From the IMG/VR virus record IMGVR_UViG_3300043410_001708, positions 1-64,000 of that record: a DNA stretch of 64,000 nt; one strand, 5' to 3'. The notes below the pieces were generated by a model. The model did no database searches. It saw only the letters and a list, made by a program, of their open reading frames with translations, and was not told the DNA's origin. Below are positions 21,977 to 52,539 of the stretch, in pieces. The stretch comes from a virus. Each line of letters begins with the position of its first letter. Within the stretch, counting starts at the first letter, position 1. The translations under genes and the position numbers were made by a program.

Positions 21977-22279
21977 TTACATCTTTGGTTGTTTACGTTT
22001 AAAGAATGACATTACTGGATTTCTTTTCTTAGAAACACCAGGTTCTCCGCCGGCGCCACCTGAACCAGCAATATTTCCGCCGCCAACATTGTTTGCTGGT
22101 GCACCAACTGCTCCTGCACCCATACCATCTTCTTTCATGTGCTTGAAGTATTGTACTTGTGCTTCACGTTTTTTGATACCTGATAAACTAGATGCAGTGC
22201 CTAGATTTTTACCAGATGATTTGGAAACTAATTTGTAACCACTATCTGTTTTAACGATATGTTCCAAAAAAGTTTTCAT
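21977..22279 (-). CDS. virion-module protein with CTS-like start, ~100 aa
   Basis: I start at MKTFLEHIVK, whose ATG overlaps the upstream stop (TAATG). It resembles the T4 capsid-targeting peptide MKTYQEFIAE but lacks the final cleavage Glu. The rest is Gly/Ala-rich and basic at the C-terminus (FFKRKQPKM). Probably a packaged internal protein; function unknown. Confidence 0.55.
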   Translation of the reverse strand: MKTFLEHIVKTDSGYKLVSKSSGKNLGTASSLSGIKKREAQVQYFKHMKEDGMGAGAVGAPANNVGGGNIAGSGGAGGEPGVSKKRNPVMSFFKRKQPKM

Positions 22280-22704
22280 TAGCAATTCCACTTACGTAAA
22301 GATTTATTAATACGTGAATCCGGATCTCTAGCGGTTGCTGCTGAAGTTAATCTTTTCTTCATGCCAGACATTCTAGCACAGAATGATTTACGGCGATTGG
22401 CTGCAGCGGAACCTGGTTTTAATTTTGATGGTTTAGTTGTAACTGCTGTTTTTAGTTTGGAACCAGGATGTTCTCTACGATAAGAGTCAACACCTTTTTG
22501 ATTCAAACCACCAGATTCTCTTTTGCCTTCTTTGCGTTGCCATGCAGCAGTTTCATCCAATTCAACTTCTTCTGGCACACAGTTAGGAACTTTTCTGCCA
22601 CCTTTCATTTTCATACCGACAGCAGTGTATCCTGTCCAACAAACTTTCTTTAGGTCACCAGTTGGTTCTTTTACTTCGTTGATGAATTCGTTAAATTTTT
22701 TCAT
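22279..22704 (-). CDS. DUF5872-like basic virion protein with CTS-like start
   Basis: Starts MKKFNEFINE, closely matching the T4 capsid-targeting consensus with a possible protease cut after INE. Then KKVCWTGYTAVGMKMKGGRKVPNC, a motif seen in several cyanophage proteins, and a C-terminal basic domain (SAAANRRKSFCARMSG...RDPDSRINKSLRKWNC) matching DUF5872. Net charge is strongly positive, which suits binding DNA inside the head. Confidence 0.7.
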   Translation of the reverse strand: MKKFNEFINEVKEPTGDLKKVCWTGYTAVGMKMKGGRKVPNCVPEEVELDETAAWQRKEGKRESGGLNQKGVDSYRREHPGSKLKTAVTTKPSKLKPGSAAANRRKSFCARMSGMKKRLTSAATARDPDSRINKSLRKWNC

Positions 22705-23087
22705 ATGTTTCGTAATATCTCTGCGACATTTATATCTAAAGGTAAATCGGATGATGATATAGTTTTTCCATTAATACCATAAACAAAATCAGGCATAATA
22801 TCAAGGTAATCTAAAAAAGTTTTTAGAATATCATAATCACGTTCATCAGTTTTATAGAACAATATTCTTGCGGTTGCTTCTGGCCCAAAAACATTATTCA
22901 ATAAAATGATATGATTTAAAATCAATCTCTCTTTAAGAGATTTTGTTATTTTATATCTTCTGAACAATCTTTTTAAATATTTTGTTCTTTTGATATCTCC
23001 TTCAAATTCAGACATGATGCAGTGTGGTGAAGTATAACATTTCATCGCATACATCATAAAATTGTCGTCATTCAAATCATCAAACAT
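22701..23087 (-). CDS. conserved T4-like phage protein, 128 aa
   Basis: Contains MMYAMKCYTSPHC, RTKYLKRLFRRYK and LKERLILNHIILLNNVFGPE, a helical family I recognise from T4-like marine phages near structural genes. Function unknown. It overlaps the DUF5872-like gene by 4 bp. Confidence 0.6.
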   Translation of the reverse strand: MFDDLNDDNFMMYAMKCYTSPHCIMSEFEGDIKRTKYLKRLFRRYKITKSLKERLILNHIILLNNVFGPEATARILFYKTDERDYDILKTFLDYLDIMPDFVYGINGKTISSSDLPLDINVAEILRNI

Positions 23088-23097
23088 AGTATTCCAA

Positions 23098-23125
23098 TAA
23101 AATAGGGGGTGGATTAACCACCCCC
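23098..23125 (-). terminator. minus-strand terminator after the Ig-like gene
   Basis: GGGGGTGG and CCACCCCC (23105-23112/23118-23125) form a stem with a 5-nt loop; on the minus strand it is followed by TATTTTATT. It lies just past the stop of the gene at 23133-23858. Confidence 0.75.
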
Positions 23126-23132
23126 ATTATCA

Positions 23133-23858
23133 TTAAGTAGTAATCAGAATTCTAGCGTTAGCAGAGTACTCTGTTACACCAGCATCGCTGTTGTATACTT
23201 TAGCACGGAATAGATAATTGTTTGCTGTAGTACCTGTTGGATCCAATACCAATGTTGTGGTATTTGCACCTGTTTTGGTCATGTTTCCTGGTTGACCAGT
23301 TGTTACACCAGTTCCGTTTGGAAGGTCAACCCATACACCACCAGAGTTGTTATTAACTTGCCACTGATAAGACAATGAACCGCCTGTAGCACCATCAGTA
23401 ATTTCTGCACCAACTGTCAATGTGATTGTATCAGAACTTGCAGCACTTACTGGACCAGATAGAGATTCAGGTTGTGTTGTAATTGCAATTACCATATCAG
23501 GTAATACAGTATCATCACTATTGTTATCGGAAGCAACTTGTGAAAGTGCAACCAATGTTTCCCATTGTACACGACCTGCACGACCACCAGAACCAGTTGT
23601 TTTAATATTCCAACCAGTATGAGCAGGTGGTGTTCCAGCTGCTTCTTGTACGTCCATTTCGTTTCCATCAACTAAGAATAGACCAATTGTTTCACCAGAT
23701 GTATATACACTAGAAGTTGTATTGCCGTAAAGCAATGCAACGTTTGCTGCATCAGGTGCAGCCGCAACAGATTTTACGTCCGCTGCATTTACTATTGCTG
23801 AGTTAACGGCCCAATATGGTGCGTTAGCTGCGTTATCGTTTTTGCCCCAAGATGACAT
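23133..23858 (-). CDS. Ig-like head/virion decoration protein
   Basis: The N-terminal SSWGKNDNAANAPYWAVNSA is typical of a cyanophage structural family; the C-terminal part (residues ~125-241, ITTQPESLSGP...SLSYQWQVNN...NNYLFRAKVY) is an immunoglobulin-like beta sandwich. Flanked by a late-promoter-like box and a strong terminator, it forms a monocistronic late unit, suggesting an abundant structural protein. Confidence 0.7.
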   Translation of the reverse strand: MSSWGKNDNAANAPYWAVNSAIVNAADVKSVAAAPDAANVALLYGNTTSSVYTSGETIGLFLVDGNEMDVQEAAGTPPAHTGWNIKTTGSGGRAGRVQWETLVALSQVASDNNSDDTVLPDMVIAITTQPESLSGPVSAASSDTITLTVGAEITDGATGGSLSYQWQVNNNSGGVWVDLPNGTGVTTGQPGNMTKTGANTTTLVLDPTGTTANNYLFRAKVYNSDAGVTEYSANARILITT

Positions 23859-23890
23859 TTTATTCTCCTTTTAACCGTGGGTTATCTTAC

Positions 23891-23898
23891 TATTTATC
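23891..23898 (-). promoter_or_regulatory. late-promoter-like box GATAAATA
   Basis: One mismatch from the T4 late consensus TATAAATA, 33 bp upstream of the Ig-like structural gene, and matched by a terminator at that gene's end. Confidence 0.45.
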
Positions 23899-25465
23899 TT
23901 TTTCCAGAAATTGGTTTACGCATCTTCATCATAGGATCGATTTCGATGGTATCTCGCTTTTCACCAGTCATGGTGGTGCCACCCGTAAGTATCGCAGCGG
24001 CTTTTGGTTCCTCTAAACCTGCACCAGCTTGTTGCATCTTTGGTTTTTTACCATATGTTGCAACAGACTTGCCTTCTTTTTCATGGTCATAAATTTCCTC
24101 TTTCATACCTTTCTTTTTGTAAAGGTTTTTAATGATTCGAGCAGACTTAGACATTTGAATCAATTTTTTATTCTTATCTTTTGGTTCAACATCATCAGGA
24201 CTATTTGCACAATCACAAGGCATTGATGTGGCAGCCATTGGGTCTTGTGTATTTTCGTGTATTGTGTAACCTTGTTTTTTTAAATGTGCTCTTGCAGCAG
24301 GTTTAGCTTCAGCGTGAGTTTTTTGAGAATTAGAAATAGTTACTGTGCGATTGTGTTTCTCACCACCATCTTTAGAAACATTAAATGTAATTTTATGTGT
24401 TATTCCTGGATCTGGAACATGGTACTCATCATCTTCTCTACGAGGACGACCAAACGAGTGATAACTAGGAACACCGTGTCTGTAACCACGACCTTCTTCT
24501 AATTCTGTTTCCTCATTCTTTTGAGTGCCGTCAGCCTTCTTATGTGACTTGTAACCTTTGTTCTTCATGGACCATGCAAGTGCCCAAGGATTATCAATCT
24601 TCTTGTACTTTTTCATTGCTTTGACGGTACCTTCAAAACCTGGAGGTGCAACTTCTGTCATGTCTTGTTTTTTAGGTTGCGTGTCTGCTGGTTTCTTGTT
24701 CAACAATTCGTTGCCCAATCGTTCTTCACGTTCACGTTTTTGTTTAGCTTGTTGTAAAGCTTTGTACATACGAATAGAAGCTGATGTGGCTTCATTAATA
24801 TCTTCATTCTTACTGTTTAGATAGTTACCAACAGTATCAATGTAGTCTGATGCCAATGTCAATTTAGATTGAACCCATGCAGGTAGTTGTTTTTCATAAT
24901 CAGTACCAATGTAATCACGAACCATCTTTACGGCACGCTCCATTTGATCCAACTGATTCAAAACCATACTACCTTCATCATCCATCATCTGACCCATTGC
25001 AATTGCAATATGGTTTTCATCGAGGTCAAGGTCTTCTTTCAATTTTGTCACAAAGTTGTAATCTTTCATTGACAAGACACCTTTTTTACGGATGTGAATC
25101 AATTTTTCAACCATTTTGTGCAAAGCAATATCAGTCTTTAAATCTTCTCTGGTAAATTCCAAAACACGAATCAACAAAGGAATGTCAAATGTAACAACAT
25201 CCATTTTGTCAATTGCTTCAACAAGAGATTCGACCATGTGGTCTCTTTTCCACTTGATGAATTGACCCATCTTGGAATGTGCAACCTTTTGGTCTTTGGT
25301 AACATGTTTTGGATTAATACCTCTAGAAATGAGATATTGATTCAAAGCAGCATCTTCCGAAATGTTTGCTTTTGCGGACCATGGATCCCAAGGATTGGTA
25401 CCAAAAGATGATTTTTCTAAACCACCTTTTTTTACTATAGACTTTACTGTTTGTGCTTTGCTCAT
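23894..25465 (-). CDS. multi-module virion-associated protein, 523 aa
   Basis: A mosaic of segments common in T4-like cyanophages: a helical N-terminal region (to ~235), then APPGFEGTVKAMKKYKKID with NPWALAWSMKNKGYKSH (~285-325), a charged middle, SKSARIIKNLYKKKGMKEE (~430), and LTGGTTMTGEKRDTIEIDP near the end. Charged and low in hydrophobic residues. Probably an internal head or neck protein (inference from context). No CTS-like start. Confidence 0.6.
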   Translation of the reverse strand: MSKAQTVKSIVKKGGLEKSSFGTNPWDPWSAKANISEDAALNQYLISRGINPKHVTKDQKVAHSKMGQFIKWKRDHMVESLVEAIDKMDVVTFDIPLLIRVLEFTREDLKTDIALHKMVEKLIHIRKKGVLSMKDYNFVTKLKEDLDLDENHIAIAMGQMMDDEGSMVLNQLDQMERAVKMVRDYIGTDYEKQLPAWVQSKLTLASDYIDTVGNYLNSKNEDINEATSASIRMYKALQQAKQKREREERLGNELLNKKPADTQPKKQDMTEVAPPGFEGTVKAMKKYKKIDNPWALAWSMKNKGYKSHKKADGTQKNEETELEEGRGYRHGVPSYHSFGRPRREDDEYHVPDPGITHKITFNVSKDGGEKHNRTVTISNSQKTHAEAKPAARAHLKKQGYTIHENTQDPMAATSMPCDCANSPDDVEPKDKNKKLIQMSKSARIIKNLYKKKGMKEEIYDHEKEGKSVATYGKKPKMQQAGAGLEEPKAAAILTGGTTMTGEKRDTIEIDPMMKMRKPISGKR

Positions 25466-25474
25466 TATTGTGCC

Positions 25475-25620
25475 TTATTTGTTCATCATTTCTTTTTGAA
25501 CTCTATCTAAAGATTTTTTAGCCAAGTATCTTGCATGATTCAATGGCTTCAAATCGTGTGTATCATTGATACTAGAGACAAAAGGTCCGTCTTCCTGACT
25601 GGTTGGTCCTTTTGCCTCAT
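25475..25620 (-). CDS. predicted -1 frameshift extension of the upstream gene
   Basis: An open frame without an ATG start continues the upstream gene in the -1 frame. After the slippery A_AAA_AAG it reads VNEAKGPTSQEDGPF and ends LAKKSLDRVQKEMMNK. The sequence looks like a helical protein tail. Without a frameshift it would have no start codon. Confidence 0.55.
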
Positions 25621-26346
25621 TTACTTTTTTTCGTCAGTGTCCTTTTCAGGTACGTCTTTTTGTTTAGAGCCACCATAACGTGAACCTTGTTTAACACCTG
25701 AACCACCGTTTGGTTCTGGATCAGGTTTCTTTTTCCAATCAAATGCATTTTCTTTAAATTGTTTCAATGTTTTTGGCATGATTTCTTCTTTTGTTAAACG
25801 TTCAACTGCTTTGTCAATACCTGCGTGACGCTTTTGAGCGATGGAATTGAATCTGTCAGAAAGACGAGAGTTCGCTGACTTGGAACTAGGTTTTCTAGAT
25901 TTGTTTGCATTATTTGCAAAGTTGGCACCAAGTGAACGAGAAGCACCAACATCTTTTGCTGCATTTTTCACATAAGAACCTAAAGTTGATTTTGATAATT
26001 CATCAATCTGTTCAACTTCTTCACCCATAGCCTTGTCTGATGGTTTCTTACCAGTTTGTGGAAGATTCATCTTGCGTTGAAGGTCTTTAAGTTGGTCTTC
26101 ATCTGAACCACCAGTCAAAGCTTTGAAAGCTTTCTTAGCAATTTCTTTAATACCTTCTTCAACTGTTTCTTCTGCAACTTCTTTCTTTTTGGCTTTCTTT
26201 TCACCACGAAGAATCTCAAAGTCTTCCGCATCGACTTTGTTGTTATGGTTCTTGTCGATAGCTCCTTGGTTACCCTTTAGTGCTTCTTGTTGTAGAATGC
26301 CTTTTACTGCATCTGCAATAGGATCTTGTTTTTTTAAGTTAATCAT
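25621..26346 (-). CDS. virion-module protein with EF-hand-like loop and frameshift site
   Basis: Start taken at MINLKKQDPIADAVKG, three bases after the upstream stop. Residues ~31-45 (DKNHNNKVDAEDFEIL) look like a calcium-binding EF-hand/dockerin loop. EEVEQIDELSKSTLGSYVKNA is a motif repeated in many T4-like phage virion proteins. The zero frame ends GACGAAAAAAAGTAA: A_AAA_AAG followed by a stop, so a -1 shift can add about 48 residues. Confidence 0.65.
   Translation of the reverse strand: MINLKKQDPIADAVKGILQQEALKGNQGAIDKNHNNKVDAEDFEILRGEKKAKKKEVAEETVEEGIKEIAKKAFKALTGGSDEDQLKDLQRKMNLPQTGKKPSDKAMGEEVEQIDELSKSTLGSYVKNAAKDVGASRSLGANFANNANKSRKPSSKSANSRLSDRFNSIAQKRHAGIDKAVERLTKEEIMPKTLKQFKENAFDWKKKPDPEPNGGSGVKQGSRYGGSKQKDVPEKDTDEKK
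25624..25630 (-). promoter_or_regulatory. -1 ribosomal frameshift heptamer A_AAA_AAG
   Basis: The dnaX-type slippery heptamer lies in frame directly before the stop UAA. Nine bases further, CAAAAGG pairs with CCTTTTG to give a 7-bp stem, the usual stimulator geometry. Confidence 0.6.
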
Positions 26347-26347
26347 T

Positions 26348-26560
26348 TTATGCTCCTTTAATATTTTTTGCAGCTGCAGCAAAAGTTTCACCTTTAGCTT
26401 GTGCGGCGCCGCCGTGTCCGAATTGTTTTTCTCTTTCAGCTTGGTCACCATACTCTTTTGCTTTATCCATCAAATGTTTCTTTTGACGTTTGATTTCTTC
26501 AGCATCATGGTGTACCGTTTCTGGTGTGGATTCTTTTACAAATTCTGTGAATTTTTTCAT
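26348..26560 (-). CDS. 70-aa internal-protein candidate with CTS-like start
   Basis: Begins MKKFTEFVKE, the closest match in the window to T4 MKTYQEFIAE. The remaining 60 residues are helical, charged and Ala/Gly-rich (EEIKRQKKHLMDKAKEYGDQ). Size and composition recall T4 internal proteins IPI-IPIII. Coupled by 4 bp to the NMNAT-like gene. Confidence 0.65.
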   Translation of the reverse strand: MKKFTEFVKESTPETVHHDAEEIKRQKKHLMDKAKEYGDQAEREKQFGHGGAAQAKGETFAAAAKNIKGA

Positions 26561-28323
26561 TTCTTTTTCTTCTTTGTTGAACTAGAACCAAATTTATCTC
26601 TTGGGTTTTCCATTGGTTCTTTATTTGTAGAACCACTTAAAACACCAACAACACCCATTTCGGAATCACCTGGATCATTAAATGATTCTCTGTATGTTAC
26701 ATCGCCTAAACCAGACATAGGGTATACTGTTCCCTGTTGGCGTGTATCGAATTCTGGACCAACTGTTGAAATATTTCTCATTCTTTGATTAACAGTTGGT
26801 GAATCAATAAAACGATTACGTTTTACTTTTTCTTTGTCCTTGGAGAAGTTGCTTTCTTTGGGGATTGGGCTGATTTTGAGGCTTGCGTTTTCTTCGCTGT
26901 AGGTTTTGAAGGTGTAACTTCCTCGCTTTTTGTTTCCGTCCCACTTGATGTTGTCGGCGTTGGTGTCTCCTGCACGATTATCTGGGGTGGTGTCTCCTGG
27001 ACCATCGGCTGTTGGACCTGTTCCGGATGATATTTTTGGATATCTAGAGGATGTTTCTGTGTTGCGCTTGGACTTGTAACTTTCAAAAAATCTAGAATTT
27101 TTCTTAACATTTTCATTTTCCTTAAATAATGATGTGATACTAATTTTACCACGACTTTCCAACCAAGAGAACGCAATTTCATTGTAATTTTTGTCCTCAA
27201 TGAACCTATTTATTTTTTCGTAAGTATCAGTAATATCCTCTTGAATTTCTTCAAAGGTTGAACTATTATTAAAATCTATAAAATTAGAAAAATTCTGTTT
27301 GTATGCTTCTTTTGAAGTTTGTGCTAATTGCCACTTATCATATCTAACCGATTCTGAAATCGACTTGGCCAATTTCTCATTACGTTCTTTGCTGGCTTCA
27401 TTTGTTGTATCAACAAATACCATAACAGCTTCGTAACCAAATTCTTCCAATTCTTCTCTAATGGTAATCATTCTTGTGTGGTCATCAGCAGGACCATTAA
27501 TGATTAGGGGTCCACGATTACGAATTGCTTCTCTGCGATAATCTGTTGTTTTTTCGGACAATTTTTGTTTATCCATCAACAAGTCAAATGCCTGTACTGA
27601 ATTTAATTCTACTGCTTTGCTTTCAGCAATTGCTTCACGTATGATAACATCTTTGCCTGAACCTGGACCACCAGTCACAAAGATTGCTTTGAATAATCCA
27701 CGATTGTGTTCTTCATTTAGTCCCATGCCTCTACGAACATCACGGAATAATTCTCTTGCGTGTTTTTCTGGTACATGTGATGGAACACCTTGTCTAAAAG
27801 AATTGAAATCACCATTCTTTGCATGTTCACGCATTTTAGAAGCCGACATGCCTTCTGCACCTTCGGCATCAGGATCACGTTGGCCAGCAGACTTAACTTC
27901 AATCTTTTTAAAATTAAAAAGAGAACCAGCAGCTGTTCCGTTGTATTGTTTTAATTTATCTGCATATTCATTTACACGGTCAGAACCAGCAACCATAATT
28001 AAATGGTCGTGTCCCATTTGATTCAATCTGGCTGCATGTTGCAAGAATGTTGGTTGTTCTTTACTAGACGTTTCAATATTCGTATCTGGAAAGAATCTCT
28101 TAGCGTGCTTCAATTTGGATTTTGCATCCAAAGGATTTTTCTTAGCATCAACTGAATGAGAAATGATAACGTGATGTGGTGCTTTGTAATCTTTGGCAAT
28201 TTGTTTAACTTTATCCACTAACTTTTCATGGCCAATTGTGGGTGGATTCATACGGCCAAAAGCCATCACCACTGGCTTGTGGGTTTTTGAATCTGCTTCT
28301 AATTTTTCTAAGAATGATTTCAT
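26557..28323 (-). CDS. nucleotidyltransferase/P-loop kinase fusion (NadR-like), 588 aa
   Basis: Residues ~17-190 are an NMNAT/cytidylyltransferase domain: GRMNPPTIGHEKL supplies the T/HxGH motif and MSASKMRE the ISxxxxR-type motif. Residues ~210-370 are a P-loop kinase (FVTGGPGSGKDVIIREA) related to zeta-toxin/NadR kinases. The last 200 residues are disordered with a KKKKK end. The architecture matches bifunctional NAD-salvage enzymes; substrate unproven. Its start MKSFLEKLEA is CTS-like, implying it may be packaged in the virion. Confidence 0.75.
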   Translation of the reverse strand: MKSFLEKLEADSKTHKPVVMAFGRMNPPTIGHEKLVDKVKQIAKDYKAPHHVIISHSVDAKKNPLDAKSKLKHAKRFFPDTNIETSSKEQPTFLQHAARLNQMGHDHLIMVAGSDRVNEYADKLKQYNGTAAGSLFNFKKIEVKSAGQRDPDAEGAEGMSASKMREHAKNGDFNSFRQGVPSHVPEKHARELFRDVRRGMGLNEEHNRGLFKAIFVTGGPGSGKDVIIREAIAESKAVELNSVQAFDLLMDKQKLSEKTTDYRREAIRNRGPLIINGPADDHTRMITIREELEEFGYEAVMVFVDTTNEASKERNEKLAKSISESVRYDKWQLAQTSKEAYKQNFSNFIDFNNSSTFEEIQEDITDTYEKINRFIEDKNYNEIAFSWLESRGKISITSLFKENENVKKNSRFFESYKSKRNTETSSRYPKISSGTGPTADGPGDTTPDNRAGDTNADNIKWDGNKKRGSYTFKTYSEENASLKISPIPKESNFSKDKEKVKRNRFIDSPTVNQRMRNISTVGPEFDTRQQGTVYPMSGLGDVTYRESFNDPGDSEMGVVGVLSGSTNKEPMENPRDKFGSSSTKKKKK

Positions 28324-29298
28324 TTAATCTTTATGTCCCAAAGTTTTCTTGAAATTAAACAAATCTTCGTCTTTGTCTAAGTCGTATGTACTTTTATTCA
28401 AACCCTTTTTACCATCTGGATGAAAAGCAACTGTTCTGGCAAATTTATTACCTTTTTGTTTTTCCCTAATTCTCCAAGAACCTTGGCCAGATATATTAGG
28501 TAGGCCATGGCCAGTTTCATCTTTTTTACCAACACTGTATGTGCCATAACCACCAACTTGAAGTACGTGTACATGGTGGTCTTGTAGGTATGCTTGTGCT
28601 GGATCTAAATTTGGATGTTTCAGTTCAATTGTTTTTGTTCTACCTGAAGCAGTAGTCTCCACATTTTCAGGAGTATGGTAATGAGCATTCATATGGTCCA
28701 AAATACCAGCTTTCTCTATTGCCTTTGCATAAAGTGGTCTTTTCTTTCTTGCTGCGTCACCAATATGCCAACCCTTTTCTTTGGTGTGATGTATTGTTAA
28801 TTGTCCCATTGCGGCAGTAACACCGTCTTTTGTTTCACCATTTAATAAAGAACCAGAAACTGTTCCAGGATGCATGGATTGAGTTTTTTTGTTTTCGATT
28901 GCAAAGTCTGTGCCGCTGGTTGAACCTGCACCTAGGAGATGATGTGGCATAATACCGTGGTGTTTCAATCTCTCAACAAACTTAGATTCATAATCATGTC
29001 CTTTGTTTGTTGGTGCTTCACCTGGTTTATGTAATTTTGAAATAGGAATTAATTGATGATTACCAGTTTCATCTTCAGCATTTACATGGATTTTTCCGTT
29101 GATGCGTTCAACACTCTTTAATTTTACAGAAGAACCTTTTGGTAAATCTTCATGTTCGGTTGCTAGAGTGTGTGTAAATTCCTTTGAACCAAGATATGGT
29201 GTAACATATTTTTTTAAATGGTCTTCACCTGCTTGGCCAGAAGCAGTCATTTTACCACGACCTTCGGTCAACAAAAAAGACTTGAATGATTCCATCAA
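28324..29298 (-). CDS. putative PD-(D/E)XK nuclease with CTS-like start, 324 aa
   Basis: After a start ESFKSFLLTE, residues ~100-190 show the nuclease pattern: a helix with Glu (DYESKFVERL), GSTSGTDFAIE with the metal-binding Asp, LNGETKDG with the ExK pair, and a following MGQ. The C-terminal half is rich in His, Gly and Lys. Nuclease assignment is by motif spacing. It lies between the kinase fusion and the ligase-like gene with overlapping ends. Confidence 0.55.
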   Translation of the reverse strand: MMESFKSFLLTEGRGKMTASGQAGEDHLKKYVTPYLGSKEFTHTLATEHEDLPKGSSVKLKSVERINGKIHVNAEDETGNHQLIPISKLHKPGEAPTNKGHDYESKFVERLKHHGIMPHHLLGAGSTSGTDFAIENKKTQSMHPGTVSGSLLNGETKDGVTAAMGQLTIHHTKEKGWHIGDAARKKRPLYAKAIEKAGILDHMNAHYHTPENVETTASGRTKTIELKHPNLDPAQAYLQDHHVHVLQVGGYGTYSVGKKDETGHGLPNISGQGSWRIREKQKGNKFARTVAFHPDGKKGLNKSTYDLDKDEDLFNFKKTLGHKD

Positions 29299-30497
29299 AT
29301 GTTCCTTATACCAGCAAAGTTTCTACGTGAGAATTCTGCACGATTAACAAATTTATCAGATTCATTATTGTGGTGAAATACGTAACCTTCTGGATTAGCA
29401 TCTTCACCAGCATGTGAATGTTGAAACTGTTGGTGTTGATTTAAAGTATCAATCAATACACCTTTTGCTGATTGCAACTCTTTATGCATTTTGAAAAGGT
29501 TATTGTAATGTTTCTTATTGCGTTCAACTTTACCAAGTTCATCTTTCAATTCGGCCTGTTTTGCTGTGCGATTCTTTTCAGTTTTTAGTTTATCAATCTT
29601 CTTATTTCTATCTTTTTCCAACCAGTTTTTGAAATTCGTATGGTTAGGTTCTTCACCCGTTCTAACTGTATGATTCATATATGTTTCTAATGAACCACCA
29701 ACGCCATGGTGAGTACTAGTGCCAGCATACATATCACTACCATGAGTATCATGTATTGCTTGTGCAGCTGCAATATGTTTATTAAATTTTTTCTGACTAT
29801 CTGGACTGAAATGAACCTTTGTTGTATCCATTCTAGGATCAACTGAGTATACATCGGGATGTTTAGTAAATTTTTCATGGTTGACTTCGTGTGATGCATT
29901 TAGACTAGATGCATCTTCACCATGATAAGAAAGGTGTGTAACGACACCAATCTTTGCTTTTTTAACTTTTGCAGCTTCATCGCCATGAGCTGTGTATGTT
30001 AGACCTGATGGATTGGGATGAAATGAAGTTCCACCATTCTTCTCTTGTTTCTTATCACCTTTGTCTGTACCAAACATCATATCACCTTGATATACACCTT
30101 CTTTTGGTGCAATCTTAGGTAAATGTGTCAGTGCATCTTTTAATTTGGCGGCCAGACCAGGTGCATGGCCATGGTTCATGTCTACATCTTTTGGTGTGTA
30201 GTTAATCTTTGGTGTCTTGTTAAAAGCAGACTTTGATGCAACAAAGAATTTACCATTTTTTGGATGGTGACCATACACTAGTGCTGGTGAACCATCATAT
30301 TTTGTAGTTAATTCAGAGGTTTTTTTGCCTGACTTAATGTGTTCTGCTGCAGCAGTTAGTGAAGAAATAGCGTGTTTTGCACCCTTTTCACCTGTTTGTA
30401 GAGGTCGGTCTTCCACATGCGTCAAGTGTTTAATCTGACGGCTGGCGCCTTCTTCAGGATCTTCTTGTTCTGTTAAAAAAGTTTTAAACGATAACAT
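29295..30497 (-). CDS. ligase-like covalent nucleotidyltransferase (DUF6267-like), 400 aa
   Basis: Starts MLSFKTFLTE (CTS-like, LTE cut site). Motif I of the ligase/capping superfamily is visible as TKYDGSPALVYG (Lys would carry AMP), a motif III-like GVYQGDMMF follows about 80 residues later, and NPEGYVFHH near the C-terminus fits motif IV (EGxV). A motif V-like KFVNRAEFSRRNF comes last. A 40-residue coiled coil separates III from IV. Ligation activity is inference; the family is of unknown function in phages. Confidence 0.6.
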   Translation of the reverse strand: MLSFKTFLTEQEDPEEGASRQIKHLTHVEDRPLQTGEKGAKHAISSLTAAAEHIKSGKKTSELTTKYDGSPALVYGHHPKNGKFFVASKSAFNKTPKINYTPKDVDMNHGHAPGLAAKLKDALTHLPKIAPKEGVYQGDMMFGTDKGDKKQEKNGGTSFHPNPSGLTYTAHGDEAAKVKKAKIGVVTHLSYHGEDASSLNASHEVNHEKFTKHPDVYSVDPRMDTTKVHFSPDSQKKFNKHIAAAQAIHDTHGSDMYAGTSTHHGVGGSLETYMNHTVRTGEEPNHTNFKNWLEKDRNKKIDKLKTEKNRTAKQAELKDELGKVERNKKHYNNLFKMHKELQSAKGVLIDTLNQHQQFQHSHAGEDANPEGYVFHHNNESDKFVNRAEFSRRNFAGIRNI

Positions 30498-30540
30498 TGT
30501 CTACCTATGAAATACAACACACTTTGGTTGTCCGTAGGGT

Positions 30541-30548
30541 TATTTATA
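30541..30548 (-). promoter_or_regulatory. late-promoter box TATAAATA
   Basis: An exact match to the T4 late consensus, about 45 bp upstream of the first CTS-bearing gene, inside the start region of a sigma70 promoter. Confidence 0.6.
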
Positions 30549-47054: not shown

Positions 47055-47128
47055 TGGAGCGGGATATCAGAATCGAACTGATGACGAAAGATTGGAAATC
47101 TCTAGTTTTGCCATTAAACTAATCCCGC
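47055..47128 (-). tRNA. tRNA-Gly(TCC)
   Basis: Acceptor GCGGGAT/ATCCCGC, anticodon loop TTTCCAA, encoded TCCA end. Lies between the Ro-like gene and the co-chaperonin gene. Confidence 0.9.
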
Positions 47129-47178
47129 ATATAACTATATATGCATCATTTTAAAACACACATAATGCATTTTAAAAT

Positions 47179-47198
47179 GAGGACTCTTGCGAGTCCCC
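47179..47198 (-). terminator. terminator after the Ro-like gene
   Basis: GGACTC/GAGTCC stem (47181-47196) with a GCAA tetraloop on the minus strand, followed by ATTTTAAAAT. The next 50 bp contain two copies of TTTTAAAATG. Confidence 0.6.
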
Positions 47199-47204
47199 AT
47201 ACCA

Positions 47205-48632
47205 TCACAATACTTTGTAACGGTCATCCATGATGGTTTTAAGCATCACAGATTCTGGTGTAAAGGTTTCTAAGTCACCCGCCAACAGTGGTTTTACGAC
47301 TGCTGGTGAGAAACCAGATACCAATGCAGTACCAGAAGTGTCGAACTTTACTGGAGCGTTGCCGTATGCGGCATTCAAGTTCCAGAATACAACCTTTGGC
47401 AAAGTGTATCCTGCTTCTTTGTACTTACGTGCAATCATCTGCATAGCAGAGTCATCATGTCTAACGCAAGCGTTAAATTGCATGTCTGACAGAATCAATA
47501 CCATCGCTGGCATTTCTTCTTGTGGCACGCCACCTTTTACTGCTACATCAAGGATTTTTGCAAATGCCTTGTGTAGGTCGGTAGACATACCCCAATCAGA
47601 TTTAACCATTTGGTCAATCTTTTGATTGATGTTACCTTTCAAGTGCAACAATTCTGGATTGGTAGAGAAAGTTAGGAAGGTGTCCTTGAACTTGCCTTCA
47701 TTCTTATCTGCCAAGTATAGTCCCAAAGAGACTGCTACTTCCAAACAGGTTAGACCTGATTTGGAACCATAACCACCTGCAGCGCAGGTCATTGAACCAG
47801 AAACATCCACCAAAGGTAGAATGTTTGCATCGCCAACAAAGTTAGGCAAAGCCTCCCATTGTTTTTGCACCAAGTCCAATTCGGTCTTGTCGAATTTCAT
47901 GTAACCACCGATACGGCCTTTCAGCACATCGTATGGGAACACAGCACCTGCATTAACCTTAACTTCTGGATTATCACCCTTAACCAACGAAGCAACATAT
48001 GCTGCATAAGTTGGAGTGTTACGGTTAAAAGCCTTCTTGTAACGGGATGCCGCTACGGAAGGTACGTGTGAGAAATTGATGGAATCCCAGTCTTTCGCAC
48101 ACATTTGAGTTTCAACCACTTTGGTCATTTCAACCAAAGACTTACGGTAAAACTTTGGGGACATACCAAAGAACTGACGGATTTCAGCCGCTAGTTTACC
48201 TTGGCGAGGAGTCCACTTTGCAGCCAATCCATTCTTCGCACGAAGCGCATCACCCAACATAGTGAATGCTGCTGACTTCATAACATCAGAATCGAATACA
48301 AAAATGTCGTCCCAACGGCCCAATTCAGGAACCTTTGTCAACAATGCTTTTGCGGCTTCTACGTCATTCTTTTCCAAATAACGCAAGATAGTACGGAACG
48401 ATTCACGTTCACCGGCACCACCACGAGCATCACGTAACCAAGCAGCAACACGCAAAGCGAGTTCACGGTTTTCTGCCATTGCAGCTGCGAAAGCAGGCAC
48501 AATGTTTTTGCCACGGGAAGCACCTGCATTGTAGAACAAATCTACAACTGCATTAGCAGTGGACTTACGAGCCTTCATACCGTTTGCGGTACGGGCATCT
48601 TGATTAACAACGGCATCTACAAAAGTTGACAT
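47205..48632 (-). CDS. Ro60-like HEAT/vWA protein (DUF2828 family), 475 aa
   Basis: N-terminal helical-repeat region (NAVVDLFYNAGASRG, ALRVAAWLRDARGGAGERE, VPELGRWDDIFVF) as in the TROVE/Ro family, and a C-terminal vWA domain with MIDAS PLVDVSGSMT, STDLHKAF and ILSDMQFNA. DUF2828 proteins occur in viruses and plants. Ro proteins bind the ends of misfolded RNAs and Y RNAs. Here it is the only long gene inside an array of tRNAs and other structured RNAs, transcribed from the same promoter as two of them. Confidence 0.75.
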   Translation of the reverse strand: MSTFVDAVVNQDARTANGMKARKSTANAVVDLFYNAGASRGKNIVPAFAAAMAENRELALRVAAWLRDARGGAGERESFRTILRYLEKNDVEAAKALLTKVPELGRWDDIFVFDSDVMKSAAFTMLGDALRAKNGLAAKWTPRQGKLAAEIRQFFGMSPKFYRKSLVEMTKVVETQMCAKDWDSINFSHVPSVAASRYKKAFNRNTPTYAAYVASLVKGDNPEVKVNAGAVFPYDVLKGRIGGYMKFDKTELDLVQKQWEALPNFVGDANILPLVDVSGSMTCAAGGYGSKSGLTCLEVAVSLGLYLADKNEGKFKDTFLTFSTNPELLHLKGNINQKIDQMVKSDWGMSTDLHKAFAKILDVAVKGGVPQEEMPAMVLILSDMQFNACVRHDDSAMQMIARKYKEAGYTLPKVVFWNLNAAYGNAPVKFDTSGTALVSGFSPAVVKPLLAGDLETFTPESVMLKTIMDDRYKVL

Positions 48633-48657
48633 AACTTACTCCTCATAAAAAAACAAC

Positions 48658-48772
48658 AGAATACATTTTTTAGCGCACTACCAATTGTGCTATTCACGCC
48701 GAAGCGTAAAACAGGATTCGAACCTGTAACCTCTCCGTTATAAGCGGAAAAATTGTTTGCTGTGAGTATTCT
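48658..48772 (-). ncRNA. scaffold RNA copy 4 (holds the permuted tRNA-Ile)
   Basis: Closing stem AGAATAC/GTATTCT (48766-48772 with 48658-48664), CAGCAA box inside the 5' strand, GTTGT after the 3' strand. The interior is a circularly permuted tRNA. The stem sequence differs from the other copies but stays fully paired. Confidence 0.75.
48673..48748 (-). tRNA. circularly permuted tRNA-Ile(TAT)
   Basis: In transcript order: anticodon arm TCCG-CTTATAA-CGGA (48734-48748), T-arm ACAGG-TTCGAAT-CCTGT (48711-48727), acceptor 3' strand TTTACGC (48704-48710), a UUCG linker (48700-48703), acceptor 5' strand GCGTGAA (48693-48699), and D-arm with AATTGGTA loop (48675-48690). All elements of a tRNA are there but the 3' half comes first. 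The seven acceptor pairs are intact (one G-U). No CCA is encoded. Confidence 0.75.
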
Positions 48773-48781
48773 AAAAACAAC

Positions 48782-48932
48782 AGGTTAGCTTTCTACTTTT
48801 TGTTTACAGTGAGAAATCGAAACTCACCTTCGTTAGGACCATTTCAATAAACACCTTCAAAGGTCGAAACCTCCAGTGTTTACCATAGTTACCTAACAGT
48901 TCAGTATTATTGAATAATGCTGTAACTAACCT
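48782..48932 (-). ncRNA. scaffold RNA copy 5 (large interior domain)
   Basis: Closing stem AGGTTAG/CTAACCT (48926-48932 with 48782-48788), CAGCA box, GTTGT tail. Inside, GTTAGG/CCTAAC encloses TAAACAC/GTGTTTA and a UUCG-capped AGGT/ACCT hairpin; a T-arm-like GTGAG...CTCAC hairpin follows. Confidence 0.65.
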
Positions 48933-48961
48933 AAAACCTTTTCAATCTTTCAATACTGTGT

Positions 48962-48990
48962 ATTGTAACACAAAAATTTGTTGTAGTCAA
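48962..48990 (-). promoter_or_regulatory. sigma70 promoter of scaffold RNAs 5/4 and the Ro-like gene
   Basis: TTGACT (48985-48990), TACAAT (48962-48967), 17-bp spacer; a GTATGT/ACATAC hairpin lies just upstream. Confidence 0.7.
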
Positions 48991-49019
48991 GCAGTATGTT
49001 GTAAACATACCACAATATT

Positions 49020-49093
49020 TGGTGCCCCATGACAGAATCGAACTGCCGTACCCGGATTACAAAACCGGTGTAATACCATTATACTAATAGGGC
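49020..49093 (-). tRNA. tRNA-Thr(TGT)
   Basis: GCCCTAT/ATGGGGC acceptor, anticodon loop TTTGTAA, encoded ACCA. Confidence 0.9.
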
Positions 49094-49101
49094 AAAAAAC
49101 T

Positions 49102-49176
49102 TGGAGCGGGTAGTGGGAATCGAACCCACAACTAAACCTTGGCAAGGTCTTGTGTTACCACTAGCACCATACCCGC
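49102..49176 (-). tRNA. tRNA-Gly(GCC)
   Basis: GCGGGTA/TACCCGC acceptor, anticodon loop TTGCCAA, encoded TCCA. First product of the promoter at 49186-49214, whose start is only a few bases upstream. Confidence 0.92.
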
Positions 49177-49185
49177 ATCATGTGT

Positions 49186-49214
49186 ATTATATATGCTTTA
49201 CAAACAATTGTCAA
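49186..49214 (-). promoter_or_regulatory. perfect sigma70 promoter for tRNA-Gly/Thr
   Basis: TTGACA (49209-49214), TATAAT (49186-49191), 17-bp spacer on the minus strand. Confidence 0.85.
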
Positions 49215-49234
49215 GCACATTTTTAAAAAATATT

Positions 49235-49318
49235 TGGTACGAGTAACCGGAGTCGAACCGGTACGCACAAGGCGGCAGATTTTAAGTCTGCTGGGTCTAC
49301 CAATTCCCCCATACTCGC
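49235..49318 (-). tRNA. tRNA-Leu(TAA)
   Basis: Class II tRNA; GCGAGTA/TACTCGT acceptor (G-U at 1-72), anticodon loop CTTAAAA, encoded ACCA. Confidence 0.92.
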
Positions 49319-49319
49319 A

Positions 49320-49904
49320 TCACATGGCAGGTCCGTTTCCATTACGGAAACCGACCTCACCACCTTCTTCTTTGATTCGTTTCATAACATCTTCAAAAAG
49401 AATAGGACGAAAATCTGTTTGTTCAACACAAACACAATGATAACGAACATCTGGTGTGTCCAGTTCTTGACCTCCGTTCCATGTCATCATCACACGACCT
49501 GTATGAAGGTGACCGTGAATGTTTGTTCCGAAACGACCAAGACTGGCGGGATGAATTGGAATATGTGAAAGAATCATTCCGTTCATTACATGATACGCAC
49601 GAAGTTCACGGAAGTGTATTCTATATTCATCATCACGGAAGATATCGTGGTTACCACGAATAAGAACTTTATCACCGTTAAGTCTATGCATAATGCTAAG
49701 TGCTTTACGATTGATTACAACATCACCAAGATGATATACTTTATCAGTTGGCTTTACTGTTTCGTTCCAACGCTTAACCATTTCTTCATCCATTTCATTT
49801 GGATCGGTCCATGGTCTAATCTTTTCACCTGTTATGGAGTCGGTGAATCTACACACACCAGCGTGACCAAAGTGTGTGTCACTTACTAAAAATACTGATG
49901 GCAT
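49320..49904 (-). CDS. calcineurin-like metallophosphoesterase
   Basis: Start at MPSVFLVSDTHFGH with AGGAG upstream. The metal-ligand series is complete: DTHFGH, LGDVV, RGNHD, SHIPIH and GHLH. Such enzymes hydrolyse phosphodiesters or phosphomonoesters; the phage substrate is unknown. Position between tRNA-Leu and tRNA-Arg could point to RNA 2',3'-phosphate or end processing (speculative). Confidence 0.85.
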   Translation of the reverse strand: MPSVFLVSDTHFGHAGVCRFTDSITGEKIRPWTDPNEMDEEMVKRWNETVKPTDKVYHLGDVVINRKALSIMHRLNGDKVLIRGNHDIFRDDEYRIHFRELRAYHVMNGMILSHIPIHPASLGRFGTNIHGHLHTGRVMMTWNGGQELDTPDVRYHCVCVEQTDFRPILFEDVMKRIKEEGGEVGFRNGNGPAM

Positions 49905-49922
49905 AATAAACTCCTGAAAAAA

Positions 49923-49997
49923 TGGCCCGGCGTGAGGGAATCGAACCCCCATTCGCACTTTAGAAGAATGCTGTCCTATCCATTGAACGAACGCCAG
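49923..49997 (-). tRNA. tRNA-Arg(TCT)
   Basis: CTGGCGT/ACGCCGG acceptor, anticodon loop CTTCTAA, encoded GCCA. Confidence 0.9.
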
Positions 49998-50002
49998 AAA
50001 AA

Positions 50003-50443
50003 TCATACTCGGATGTATTCGTAATTAACTGTTTCTTCATTTTCTCTAAAAACAATAGCGCCGTTCTTCAAGTGAAAACGCTTTGCCATTTCAGTTTTTG
50101 GAGATAATGTCACAAATCTTTTTATGTATGGCATATTATTTTCTATGTGTGATACTGCATCAAATATAAGTGTTCCACCAGCACCTGGTGCATAACTCCA
50201 TATTGTATAAAATACCGCAATCTCTGGATCGTTTACCTTTTCAAACAATTCAGATTCTTTTGTCGGAACATTTGTCTGATAACTTACGCATGTGATTGCT
50301 AATACTTTACCATTTGTATCCCGAAGAACAAAAATATCTTTGTTATTACCTACTCTTTCCGTAGTTGGAATGTTAGGCCTGACAGGATCTTCATCCAATA
50401 AATTAAAAAAACTATCTGTGATGGATTTTATAATATGTAACAT
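50003..50443 (-). CDS. hypothetical protein, possibly GNAT-like, 146 aa
   Basis: Strand-helix pattern with FVLRDTNGKVLAITCVSY, a glycine-rich APGAGGTLIFDAV and MAKRFHLKNGAIVF resembles an acetyltransferase fold, but the acetyl-CoA loop is not canonical. It lies between two tRNA genes. Confidence 0.5.
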   Translation of the reverse strand: MLHIIKSITDSFFNLLDEDPVRPNIPTTERVGNNKDIFVLRDTNGKVLAITCVSYQTNVPTKESELFEKVNDPEIAVFYTIWSYAPGAGGTLIFDAVSHIENNMPYIKRFVTLSPKTEMAKRFHLKNGAIVFRENEETVNYEYIRV

Positions 50444-50459
50444 GATAACTTAAATATAA

Positions 50460-50536
50460 TGGTGCCCCAGAGGAGACTCGAACTCCTAAAATTTGGTTTC
50501 TAAGACCAACACGTATACCAATTCCGTCACCGGGGC
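50460..50536 (-). tRNA. tRNA-Leu(TAG), short variable arm
   Basis: GCCCCGG/CTGGGGC acceptor, anticodon loop CTTAGAA, encoded ACCA. The variable region is only about five bases, unusual for tRNA-Leu. Confidence 0.88.
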
Positions 50537-50549
50537 AATAAATACTTAT

Positions 50550-50774
50550 ATGATACCTTACGAACAAAGACAAACAGTAAAACCACTTTATGAGTTATTC
50601 TCAAATGAAACATATGTGCCTCATGCTTATTATTGTATTGAATCTGATTTTATCGAATCATATGTTACTGAGATAAAATCTTTTAATGATGATGAAATAT
50701 ATATTCAACCTGAAAAAGAGTTTGTCTTAACAACATTAAAACAAGTTGGTGCTCCTACTAAGAATCGAACTTAG
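50550..50774 (+). CDS. possible plus-strand 74-aa protein within the tRNA array
   Basis: MIPYEQRQTVKPLYELFSN and an acidic FNDDEIYIQPEKEF segment look coding, and no other feature explains 50537-50745. There is no clear ribosome-binding site, and the end runs antisense into tRNA-Thr. Treated as tentative. Confidence 0.4.
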   Translation: MIPYEQRQTVKPLYELFSNETYVPHAYYCIESDFIESYVTEIKSFNDDEIYIQPEKEFVLTTLKQVGAPTKNRT

Positions 50775-50820
50775 GATACATCCTTACCATGGATGTGGTA
50801 TGCCATTTACCTATAAGAGC
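50747..50820 (-). tRNA. tRNA-Thr(GGT)
   Basis: GCTCTTA/TAGGAGC acceptor, anticodon loop ATGGTAA, encoded ACCA. Confidence 0.9.
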
Positions 50821-50825
50821 ATGAT

Positions 50826-50900
50826 TGGTGGGTCGTCAGAGAATCAAACTCTGTTCTTCCGGTTAAGAGCCGGTTGCTTCATCACTTAAGCTTACAACCC
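50826..50900 (-). tRNA. tRNA-Lys(CTT)
   Basis: GGGTTGT/ACGACCC acceptor, anticodon loop CTCTTAA, encoded ACCA. Confidence 0.9.
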
Positions 50901-50903
50901 ATA

Positions 50904-50980
50904 TGGTACCCAAGGTGGGATTCGAGCCCACATAATCTTGCTTTTGAGACAAGCACGTATACCAATTCCGTCACTTGGGT
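50904..50980 (-). tRNA. tRNA-Leu(CAA)
   Basis: ACCCAAG/CTTGGGT acceptor, anticodon loop CTCAAAA, encoded ACCA, short variable arm like tRNA-Leu(TAG). Confidence 0.9.
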
Positions 50981-50989
50981 ATATACAAC

Positions 50990-51086
50990 AGGATAGTTTT
51001 TTTACAGTGGGAATTGAACCCACAAGGTTTGCTTAGAAGGCAAATTGCGAACCATTCGCATGTGAATTTTTTGCTGAACCTATCCT
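50990..51086 (-). ncRNA. scaffold RNA copy 1 (holds a tRNA-Arg-like fold)
   Basis: Closing stem AGGATAG/CTATCCT (51080-51086 with 50990-50996), CAGCAA box, GTTGT tail. The interior is a tRNA-like RNA in normal order. Confidence 0.75.
51001..51066 (-). tRNA. tRNA-Arg(TCT)-like fold inside scaffold RNA
   Basis: D-arm TGCGAATGGTTCGCA, anticodon arm TTTGC-CTTCTAA-GCAAA and T-arm GTGGG-TTCAATT-CCCAC are intact. The acceptor is weak (TTCACA/TGTAAA with a C-A mismatch) and no CCA is encoded. It duplicates the anticodon of the tRNA at 49923. Confidence 0.6.
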
Positions 51087-51092
51087 AAAACT

Positions 51093-51168
51093 TGGTGCTG
51101 CCTAGTAGAATCGAACTACTTTCCGAGGTTCTTCAGACCCCTGCTATGACCACATCAGCTAAAGCAGC
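51093..51168 (-). tRNA. tRNA-Phe(GAA)
   Basis: GCTGCTT/AGGCAGC acceptor, anticodon loop CTGAAGA, encoded ACCA. Confidence 0.9.
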
Positions 51169-51176
51169 ATATTGAA

Positions 51177-51343
51177 TTTGTAAGTATTGGGACCTCCCTC
51201 ATTTCCCAACATTTTACCGGTATTTTCTGTGAAGCGGCCGACCGGTTAGAGGTACGTAGTAATAGTTGATACTTGGCATCGGCAAAGCACTATCCTCATT
51301 CTTGTATGCCTACAAAAACTTTCTCAACATCTACACTTACAAA
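51177..51343 (-). ncRNA. structured ~167-nt RNA between tRNA-Phe and tRNA-Val
   Basis: Closed by a 9-bp stem TTTGTAAGT/ACTTACAAA (51335-51343 with 51177-51185). Internal hairpins include TTGTA/TACAA, GATAGT/ACTATT around the centre, and TTGGGA/TCCCAA near the 3' end. No ORF and no tRNA fold. Confidence 0.6.
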
Positions 51344-51346
51344 ACT

Positions 51347-51421
51347 TGGTACCTTGTGACGGGATCGAACCGCCGACCTTCTCCTTGTAAGGGAGACACT
51401 CTACCGCTGAGTTAACAAGGC
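51347..51421 (-). tRNA. tRNA-Val(TAC)
   Basis: GCCTTGT/ACAAGGT acceptor (G-U at 1-72), anticodon loop CTTACAA, encoded ACCA. Confidence 0.9.
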
Positions 51422-51434
51422 ATAAAATTTACTT

Positions 51435-51509
51435 TGGGGAGATATATGAGAATCGAACTCATGATAACGGAATCACAACCCGTGGTTTTGCCACTAAACT
51501 AATATCTCC
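51435..51509 (-). tRNA. tRNA-His(GTG)
   Basis: Anticodon GTG with the extra G-1 opposite C73 and encoded CCA. The acceptor helix continues into the flanks to give an 18-bp perfect inverted repeat (51428-51445/51502-51519). Confidence 0.9.
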
Positions 51510-51557
51510 CCAAAGTAAACTTTGGAATTTTTAACCGTGTTTATTCACGGGGGTCTG

Positions 51558-52046
51558 TTAGACCTGCAAAGCTTCTTGTTCTGCCAAGATTCTTTTCAAT
51601 CTGTCAGCACAAAAACTTGCAGCTGGTGCGTCTGGTTTAACCATAGGTGTCATGTTACATGTACCCTTGATATAACCAATCGCTTGTTGTACAACACATG
51701 AACTTCCGTACAAGTCATCTTTGTTTAAGTCCAAATGAACTTCAACATGGAAATCTTCTAATACATCAGCCAAGTCTTGGAACAATTCTGAAACCTTATA
51801 CACTTCGGTCATTAACCGCATTGCAGGTTTACTTTTCTTATGGTCATAATCCAACTCACGTTGAACGAAACCAAAAATCTTACAACCATGGCGGCCATCA
51901 ATATGAACTACGACAGCCAAAGCATAGTCTGCATACCATACACCGTTTACACGGATACGTTCTGAGTCAGCACCCAAATATACTTTCGTATCTGGTCCTT
52001 GACTTGCAAGGAATTGCTTAACTTCTTGTATGTCGAACTTTTTCAT
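51558..52046 (-). CDS. DUF458/YkuK-like RNase H-fold nuclease
   Basis: Start at MKKFDIQEVKQF, with AGGTGA upstream. KVYLGADSERIRV is the first RNase H strand with its Asp, VEVHLDLNKDDLYGSS carries the second acidic site, and MVKPDAPAASFCADRL the C-terminal motif, as in the YkuK family. A nuclease gene between tRNA-His and tRNA-Trp invites a role in tRNA/ncRNA processing, which is inference. Confidence 0.75.
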   Translation of the reverse strand: MKKFDIQEVKQFLASQGPDTKVYLGADSERIRVNGVWYADYALAVVVHIDGRHGCKIFGFVQRELDYDHKKSKPAMRLMTEVYKVSELFQDLADVLEDFHVEVHLDLNKDDLYGSSCVVQQAIGYIKGTCNMTPMVKPDAPAASFCADRLKRILAEQEALQV

Positions 52047-52076
52047 ATCAATCACCTTTCTTTTTTTTACTAACAC

Positions 52077-52150
52077 TGGCATCCCGACAGGGACTCGAAC
52101 CCCGACCAACAGTTTTGGAGACTGGTATGCTGCCATTACACTATCGAGAT
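52077..52150 (-). tRNA. tRNA-Trp(CCA)
   Basis: ATCTCGA/TCGGGAT acceptor, anticodon loop CTCCAAA, encoded GCCA. Confidence 0.88.
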
Positions 52151-52160
52151 ATAATACAAC

Positions 52161-52219
52161 AGGATAGATTTTACTTTTCAAGTTACAAGTTTGAAGTATT
52201 TTATTGCTGTTACTATCCT
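52161..52219 (-). ncRNA. scaffold RNA copy 2 (minimal, 59 nt)
   Basis: Closing stem AGGATAG/CTATCCT, box CAGCAATAAA, a single internal hairpin (ACTT...AAGT) and a GTTGT tail. Same length as copy 3. Confidence 0.7.
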
Positions 52220-52224
52220 AAAAA

Positions 52225-52298
52225 TGGTCCTCAGAACAAGAATCGAACTTGTGATGGCCGGTTATCAGCCGACTGTTATACCATTTAACTATCCGAGG
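52225..52298 (-). tRNA. tRNA-Ile(GAT)
   Basis: CCTCGGA/TCTGAGG acceptor, anticodon loop CTGATAA, encoded ACCA. Confidence 0.9.
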
Positions 52299-52302
52299 AA
52301 TA

Positions 52303-52378
52303 TGGAGGGTCTTGAGGGATTCAAACCCCCGACCAATTGCTTCGTAGGCAACTACTCTGTTCACTGAGCTAAAGACCC
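52303..52378 (-). tRNA. tRNA-Arg(ACG)
   Basis: GGGTCTT/AAGACCC acceptor, anticodon loop CTACGAA, encoded TCCA. Confidence 0.9.
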
Positions 52379-52384
52379 ATAATC

Positions 52385-52459
52385 TGGTGGTTCAGGTGAG
52401 AATCGAACTCACACAAGGCACCGTATGAAGATGCTGCACTGCCACTATGCTACTGAACC
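52385..52459 (-). tRNA. tRNA-Met(CAT), elongator-like
   Basis: GGTTCAG/CTGAACC acceptor fully paired, anticodon loop TTCATAC, encoded ACCA. Could also be an Ile2 tRNA after lysidine modification. Confidence 0.85.
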
Positions 52460-52464
52460 AAATT

Positions 52465-52539
52465 TGGTGGACCGAGGGGGAATCGAACCCCCAACTGTGA
52501 CTTGCAAGGCCACTGTGTTCCCAATTATACCATCAGCCC
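52465..52539 (-). tRNA. tRNA-Ala(TGC)
   Basis: GGGCTGA/TCGGTCC acceptor, anticodon loop CTTGCAA, encoded ACCA. Confidence 0.9.

Follow-up and report, generated by a model that had tools for sequence, protein, structure and literature searches.

The stretch of DNA analysed (the window) comprises 64,000 nucleotides, positions 1 to 64,000 of the 106,269-base IMG/VR virus record IMGVR_UViG_3300043410_001708. The record belongs to an aquatic T4-like phage: the window encodes DNA polymerase, UvsX, a gp41-type helicase and 28 tRNA genes, and gp20, gp21, gp22, gp23 and gp17 are encoded outside it, elsewhere in the 106-kb record. Pelagibacter phage HTVC008M, Methylophilales phage Melnitz, phage C48C1 and many cyanophages are relatives of this phage, referred to below as the window phage. 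The subject of this report is a minus-strand gene cluster (21977-30497; Table 1) in which six proteins share a short N-terminal motif (the tag) resembling the capsid targeting sequence (CTS) of the T4 internal proteins. The six N-termini, listed in an earlier note on this DNA, were all found on the minus strand where that note had placed them; four carry the strict motif and two a weaker one.

The strict pattern, M-x-x-[FY]-x-x-[FYH]-[ILVM]-x(1,2)-E, was run on every start codon in the six frames of the 106-kb contig. Among real genes it matched four, all in one minus-strand operon (22279-30497); the remaining matches fitted the relaxed pattern only, or belonged to antisense, short or internal-start open reading frames (ORFs). 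The relaxed pattern also matches many internal Met codons and was therefore discarded for screening. Position 4 is F in all six N-termini, and position 7 is F in four and H or K in the two weak ones. A gp21-type site, [ILV]-x-E near residue 10, is present in four tags and absent from MKSFLEKLEA and MKTFLEHIVK; the latter has H7, I8 and K10, and the true start of its protein is the ATG at 22279, internal to a longer GTG ORF. The tag of the nuclease-like gene, MESFKSFLLTE, is one residue longer, with E at position 11. As background, seven strict matches were obtained at 9,291 internal ATGs of coding ORFs (7.5e-4), two of the seven being in reality mis-called starts of tagged genes. Across about 130 genes this rate would yield about 0.1 matches, and the probability of reaching four or more is about 3e-6; an amino-acid composition model gave 0.04 matches (P about 8e-8). 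When calibrated on the whole of T4, the strict pattern returned only ipII, ipIII and gp61.1; ipII and ipIII start with MKTYQEFIAE, the sequence that the earlier note had ascribed to T4 internal proteins.

The tag is retained across homologues. In a logo built from 91 distinct tags of related contigs, positions 4, 7, 8 and 10 carried 4.06, 3.33, 2.82 and 4.32 bits; these four were preset by the search pattern (though Y, H, I, V and M were permitted there), and the remaining positions from 2 to 16 carried 1.0-2.4 bits. The DUF6267 and 70-aa homologue sets were collected by protein bodies, leaving the motif unused, and their tags were counted in relaxed form: 121 of 136 homologous ORFs were tagged in the former, most others being truncated starts, and 80 of 81 in the latter. 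For DUF6321, tagged homologous ORFs number at least 51 and show F4, [FY]7, [ILV]8 and E10, and the 100-aa family carries a full tag such as MKTFQEYITE in 32/39 homologues. Near relatives of the 588-aa protein (MKKFLEKLHED) retain F4, L8 and E10, with K7. In 50 distinct DUF6267 gene starts, F4 is written as TTC or TTT, E10 as GAA or GAG, and position 8 with six codons; such synonymous change at the conserved positions argues that selection acts on the peptide. The conserved positions coincide with those mapped in the T4 CTS by mutagenesis of IPIII, where residues 4 and 7 control targeting and residues 8 and 10 control processing by gp21 (PMC9026906). An E10D change in T4 blocks processing and still allows targeting (PMC9026906), so that degenerate tags might permit packaging without cleavage.

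The protein bodies behind the tags are unrelated to each other, as the earlier note had claimed and family comparison bore out. A search for the tag in homologues elsewhere, which that note had suggested, yielded at least 10 unrelated tagged families in related contigs (DUF6267, DUF6321, the 70-aa and 100-aa proteins, the nuclease-like protein, cytidylyltransferase, a HAD-like phosphatase, an amidoligase-domain protein and several small families). Tags were also found in non-cyanophage isolates, namely Melnitz (MQGFKTFLSE), C48C1 (MLSFKQFVSE, MITFKKYLEE and MKKFKQYIDE) and Stenotrophomonas phage DLP6 (MMKFTQFLAE), and the motif turns up in scattered genes of other phages, beyond the tagged operon. 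DUF6267 is tagged in the window phage and untagged in S-SM1, S-SZBM1 and S-CRM01. The slot between the DUF6267 and cytidylyltransferase genes was compared at 66 distinct loci: it was empty in 43, held the tagged nuclease-like gene of the window in 17 and held another tagged gene in 6. The last of these starts with MKTYKHFIVEQ, MKSFKYFTLEE or MKSFKNFSTEQ and is unrelated to the nuclease-like gene. It is also split, into a tagged 167-aa half ending in DIVITTHKK and an untagged half, in a different frame, starting with MQVxHHGISLKV; together the halves resemble a split PD-(D/E)XK nuclease. A programmed frameshift was rejected here, as the second half starts from an ATG of its own, preceded by GAGG.

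Tag presence was compared with published virion mass spectrometry (MS) lists of cyanophages; for S-SM1 the comparison was limited to the cytidylyltransferase named in the main text of the paper. The virion list of S-CREM2, 52 of 219 proteins, includes every one of the four annotated proteins with a strict tag (Fisher P 0.003): a SAM hydrolase/SAM lyase (MKDFDSFLEE), a kinase (MKRFDAFLTE, GTG start), a cytidylyltransferase (MKNFSSFLTE) and gp136 (MQTFSMFFSE). Also detected in S-CREM2 virions are gp13 (MKDLHSFLTE) and a protein annotated as Cas9, in which RFASFMAE lies near residue 20. Virion cytidylyltransferases were likewise detected in S-SZBM1 (MRFRQFIIE) and S-SCSM1 (NMNAT/cytidylyltransferase, MKSFLQFLKE) and reported in S-SM1 (MKKFSAFLNE, the sole real tagged gene in 49 kb), so that those of all four virions are fully tagged; the S-CRM01 kinase reported in virions starts with MISFDQFLSE. 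The untagged DUF6267 protein of S-SZBM1 was not detected in virion MS, while its tagged neighbour was. Pooling three phages gives 6/9 tagged proteins in virion MS (P about 0.002 when compared with all genes and 2e-5 with non-structural genes); the pool consists of small numbers from related phages, and the borderline structural S-SCSM1 gp31 was excluded from it. The Cas9-annotated protein and its relatives share a leader, SRWxxW followed by FxxF[LIM]xE near residues 19-25, a longer tag layout like that of T4 IPI; no Pfam family backs the Cas9 name.

The operon is preceded by a T4-type late promoter core, TATAAATA. Among the distinct upstream regions of relatives, 43 of 50 have this core with identical spacing, against 0.006 occurrences expected per 150 bp. 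A hairpin in the 5' untranslated region (5'-UTR) has a covarying stem (CAAC/GTTG or TAGT/ACTA, outer pair A-T or G-C) and a nearly constant loop, C[AC]AAG[TC]GT. It precedes tagged DUF6267 genes in 118 of 119 matches (fetched loci, overlapping ones counted), matches no Rfam family and is possibly a translational operator. The gp21 of the record is 54% identical to that of S-SZBM1, and its gp23 has a candidate cleavage site, QLNE↓T, at residue 53. Corresponding candidate gp23 sites read from sequence are ILTE↓A, LLTE↓A and FLAE↓A in cyanophages and FLTE↓A in T4, of which only the last is known to be established by experiment.

Table 1. Features of the tagged gene block and of related loci. Positions are those of the window unless preceded by an L number, which denotes another locus.
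Feature	Position	Strand	Details
T4-type late promoter core TATAAATA	30541-30548	-	44 bp upstream of first operon gene; one of four in window
5'-UTR hairpin ACAAC-CAAAGTGT-GTTGT	30514-30531	-	Between late promoter and start codon
DUF6267 protein, 400 aa, ligase/nucleotidyltransferase-like	29295-30497	-	PF19782, E 1.9e-93; tag MLSFKTFLTE at 30468-30497
Putative PD-(D/E)XK nuclease, 323 aa	28324-29295	-	Optional gene in variable slot; tag MESFKSFLLTE at 29263-29295
Cytidylyltransferase/NMNAT-like domain and P-loop kinase-like domain, 588 aa	26557-28323	-	Weak tag MKSFLEKLEA at 28294-28323
70-aa protein, no assigned function	26348-26560	-	Tag MKKFTEFVKE at 26531-26560
Untagged operon member, 276 aa	25621-26451	-	0/106 homologous ORFs tagged
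Untagged operon member, 523 aa	23894-25465	-	0/151 homologous ORFs tagged
Untagged gene	23133-23858	-	
Untagged gene	22701-23087	-	
DUF6321 protein, 141 aa, basic	22279-22704	-	PF19846, E 3.5e-18; tag MKKFNEFINE at 22675-22704
100-aa protein	21977-22279	-	Degenerate tag MKTFLEHIVK at 22250-22279
28 tRNA genes	47055-56895		All within this one region
Split alternative slot gene	L200:2248-3385, L201:8864-10001, L042:1256-2393, L079:6297-7444, L076:1464-2611		
Cas9-annotated leader family	L218:7704-10313, L230:11422-11973, L231:11216-14149, L232:11243-14161		
T4 gp61.1	L226:18966-19130		
T4 76-aa ORF	L228:16210-16440		

The predicted functions of the tagged proteins were derived from motifs, profiles and models. 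In the DUF6267 protein K66-x-D-G, E370-G and K382-x-V are invariant in 11 sequences down to 24% identity, and KxDG, EG and KxV are motifs of the ATP-dependent ligase/nucleotidyltransferase superfamily. Alignments given to AF2 were free of rows from named phages. The DUF6267 model has a pLDDT of 84.8, with residues 1-23 disordered and detached from the fold; the best PDB matches of the model are DNA ligases, at a weak level (E 0.018, TM 0.17-0.22). PDB sequence searches with this protein and with the nucleotidyltransferase-kinase returned nothing significant. The 588-aa protein, compared with the NadR-like order of an NMNAT-type nucleotidyltransferase domain and then a P-loop kinase, matches PF01467 (CTP_transf_like) at 22.7 bits (cut-off 21) and phrog_3041 at E 1.6e-66, and its kinase-domain match, AAA_33, is below cut-off. 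In the 323-aa nuclease-like protein D130 and E154-x-K156 are invariant, among close homologues only, and its AF2 model (pLDDT 50) is not usable for fold assignment. The earlier note had named a ligase-like protein, a nuclease and a nucleotidyltransferase-kinase as the tagged enzymes; the first two are indeed strictly tagged, and the third has the weakest tag of the set. As a guess, a ligase and a kinase together could serve in RNA repair, and an NMNAT in NAD supply. The DUF6321 module is also found C-terminally in many phage protein families that have nothing else in common (phrog_727, 3477, 10346 and 30733), and short modules of the tagged operon reappear in mosaic order.

Taken as a whole, the shared N-terminus is likely a CTS equivalent to that of the T4 internal proteins, by which the released enzymes would be kept inside the head and passed to the next host along with the DNA. 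The proposal of the earlier note that it is a sorting tag is strengthened by the match between its conserved positions and those of the T4 CTS, by the swapping of unrelated bodies behind it, by the encoded gp21, gp22 and gp23, the last with a matching candidate site, and by the detection of tagged non-structural proteins of relatives in published MS. Several observations weigh against this conclusion. MKSFLEKLEA lacks both an aromatic residue at position 7 and E10; in all, 2/6 tags of the window phage are without E10 and 1/6 is without an aromatic residue or histidine at position 7. The cultured relative HTVC008M, with the same gene module, has degenerate starts only, e.g. MLSFTGYSNLSE↓A. The small tagged proteins gp191 and gp192 of S-SZBM1 and gp30 of S-SCSM1 were not detected in the published virion MS. 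Untagged non-structural proteins were also detected in virions, so the tag is not the sole way into the virion, and the authors of the proteomes themselves caution about co-purification. Judged from its sequence, the tag has the features of the T4 CTS, and the support for presence in virions comes from relatives and not from the window phage.

Three other explanations were weighed. It is unlikely that the tag docks proteins on the prohead core for head assembly or DNA condensation, the proteins then being retained or degraded and not injected as enzymes. Such a role would recall T4 gp22, gp67 and gp68, core proteins that are cut or lost at maturation, and the DUF6321 and 70-aa proteins are small and charged; however, the larger cargo has enzyme motifs, intact relatives are present in mature virions, and the composition of the operon is variable, unlike that of essential assembly parts. 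We regard as quite improbable another job for the motif, such as docking to a tail or membrane component, or a nucleotide-level signal at gene starts. The genes of the block are tightly packed, and the motif does coincide with start codons there, but conservation is at the amino-acid level, with synonymous change free, the positions match the T4 CTS, and the motif also occurs away from the tagged operon, in scattered genes of other phages. Single matches to so short a motif could arise in an AT-rich phage whose gene starts are rich in lysine and phenylalanine, yet coincidence is hardly credible with about 0.04-0.1 matches expected against four found, all in one operon, and it is already refuted by the retention of the motif across homologues.

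A CTS-like role could be exercised as follows. The operon would be read from the late promoter during head assembly, the aromatic residues 4 and 7 would dock each protein on the prohead core, and gp21 would cut after [ILV]-x-E. Once freed, the enzymes would stay packaged beside the DNA and accompany it into the next host. The cargo list would be exchangeable, since any gene gaining the tag would become cargo. For the window phage we infer the core docking, the cleavage, the injection and the enzyme roles in the new host. Since unrelated enzymes are tagged and tagged relatives occur in purified virions, the phage probably delivers a set of ready-made enzymes to the host that it infects. We would give even chances to a broader proposal, that marine and lake-dwelling T4-like phages use a common, open ten-residue cargo address and swap pre-made enzymes that act before the first phage gene is read, in RNA repair, NAD supply or counter-defence; that the enzymes so swapped are the ligase-like protein, kinase, NMNAT, nuclease, SAM lyase and HAD phosphatase is an equally balanced call.

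Virion proteomics of cyanophages has repeatedly found metabolic enzymes and kinases, and its authors were unable to separate packaging from contamination. A ten-residue address would account for much of that list and predict cargo from sequence, making packaging versus contamination directly testable. With the tag as a rule, the proteins injected by aquatic phages, which are abundant and mostly uncultured, could be listed, and the peptide would be ready for use in delivering proteins with such phages.

Among known systems, SPN3US-like giant phages (ejection proteins) and P1 (DarA/Hdf) also pack proteins in the head, with prohead-protease processing in SPN3US; their reported signals differ, being long propeptides or other signals. 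The NMNAT/cytidylyltransferase, kinase and SAM hydrolase reported in cyanophage virions (S-SM1, S-SCSM1, S-SZBM1, S-CREM2 and S-CRM01) include a homologous, fully tagged cytidylyltransferase; those reports proposed no sorting signal and left co-purification undecided. Loading of various proteins by T4-like phages through the CTS has been suggested before (PMC9026906), and a search of the accessible literature found no paper applying it to cyanophages or their relatives. In T4 itself, gp61.1, which adjoins the anti-toxin genes 61.2-61.5, looks tagged (MKTFKEFIKED), as does a 76-aa ORF downstream in uvsW that starts with MLLEFKQFLYEAS. The closest likeness is to the CTS of T4 IPI, IPII and IPIII, which shares with the tag the N-terminal place, a length of 10-19 residues, F/Y4, F/Y7, [ILV]8-x-E10, unrelated bodies and an encoded gp21-type protease. 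The T4 cargo consists of three small proteins (95-193 aa) and Alt, whose N-terminus differs (MELITELFDED), whereas the predicted cargo of the window phage includes proteins that have enzyme motifs and are 300-600 aa long (in S-CREM2, 755 aa), encoded in a late operon with an exchangeable slot. To the known CTS of T4 would be added a widespread, exchangeable tag on large predicted enzymes.

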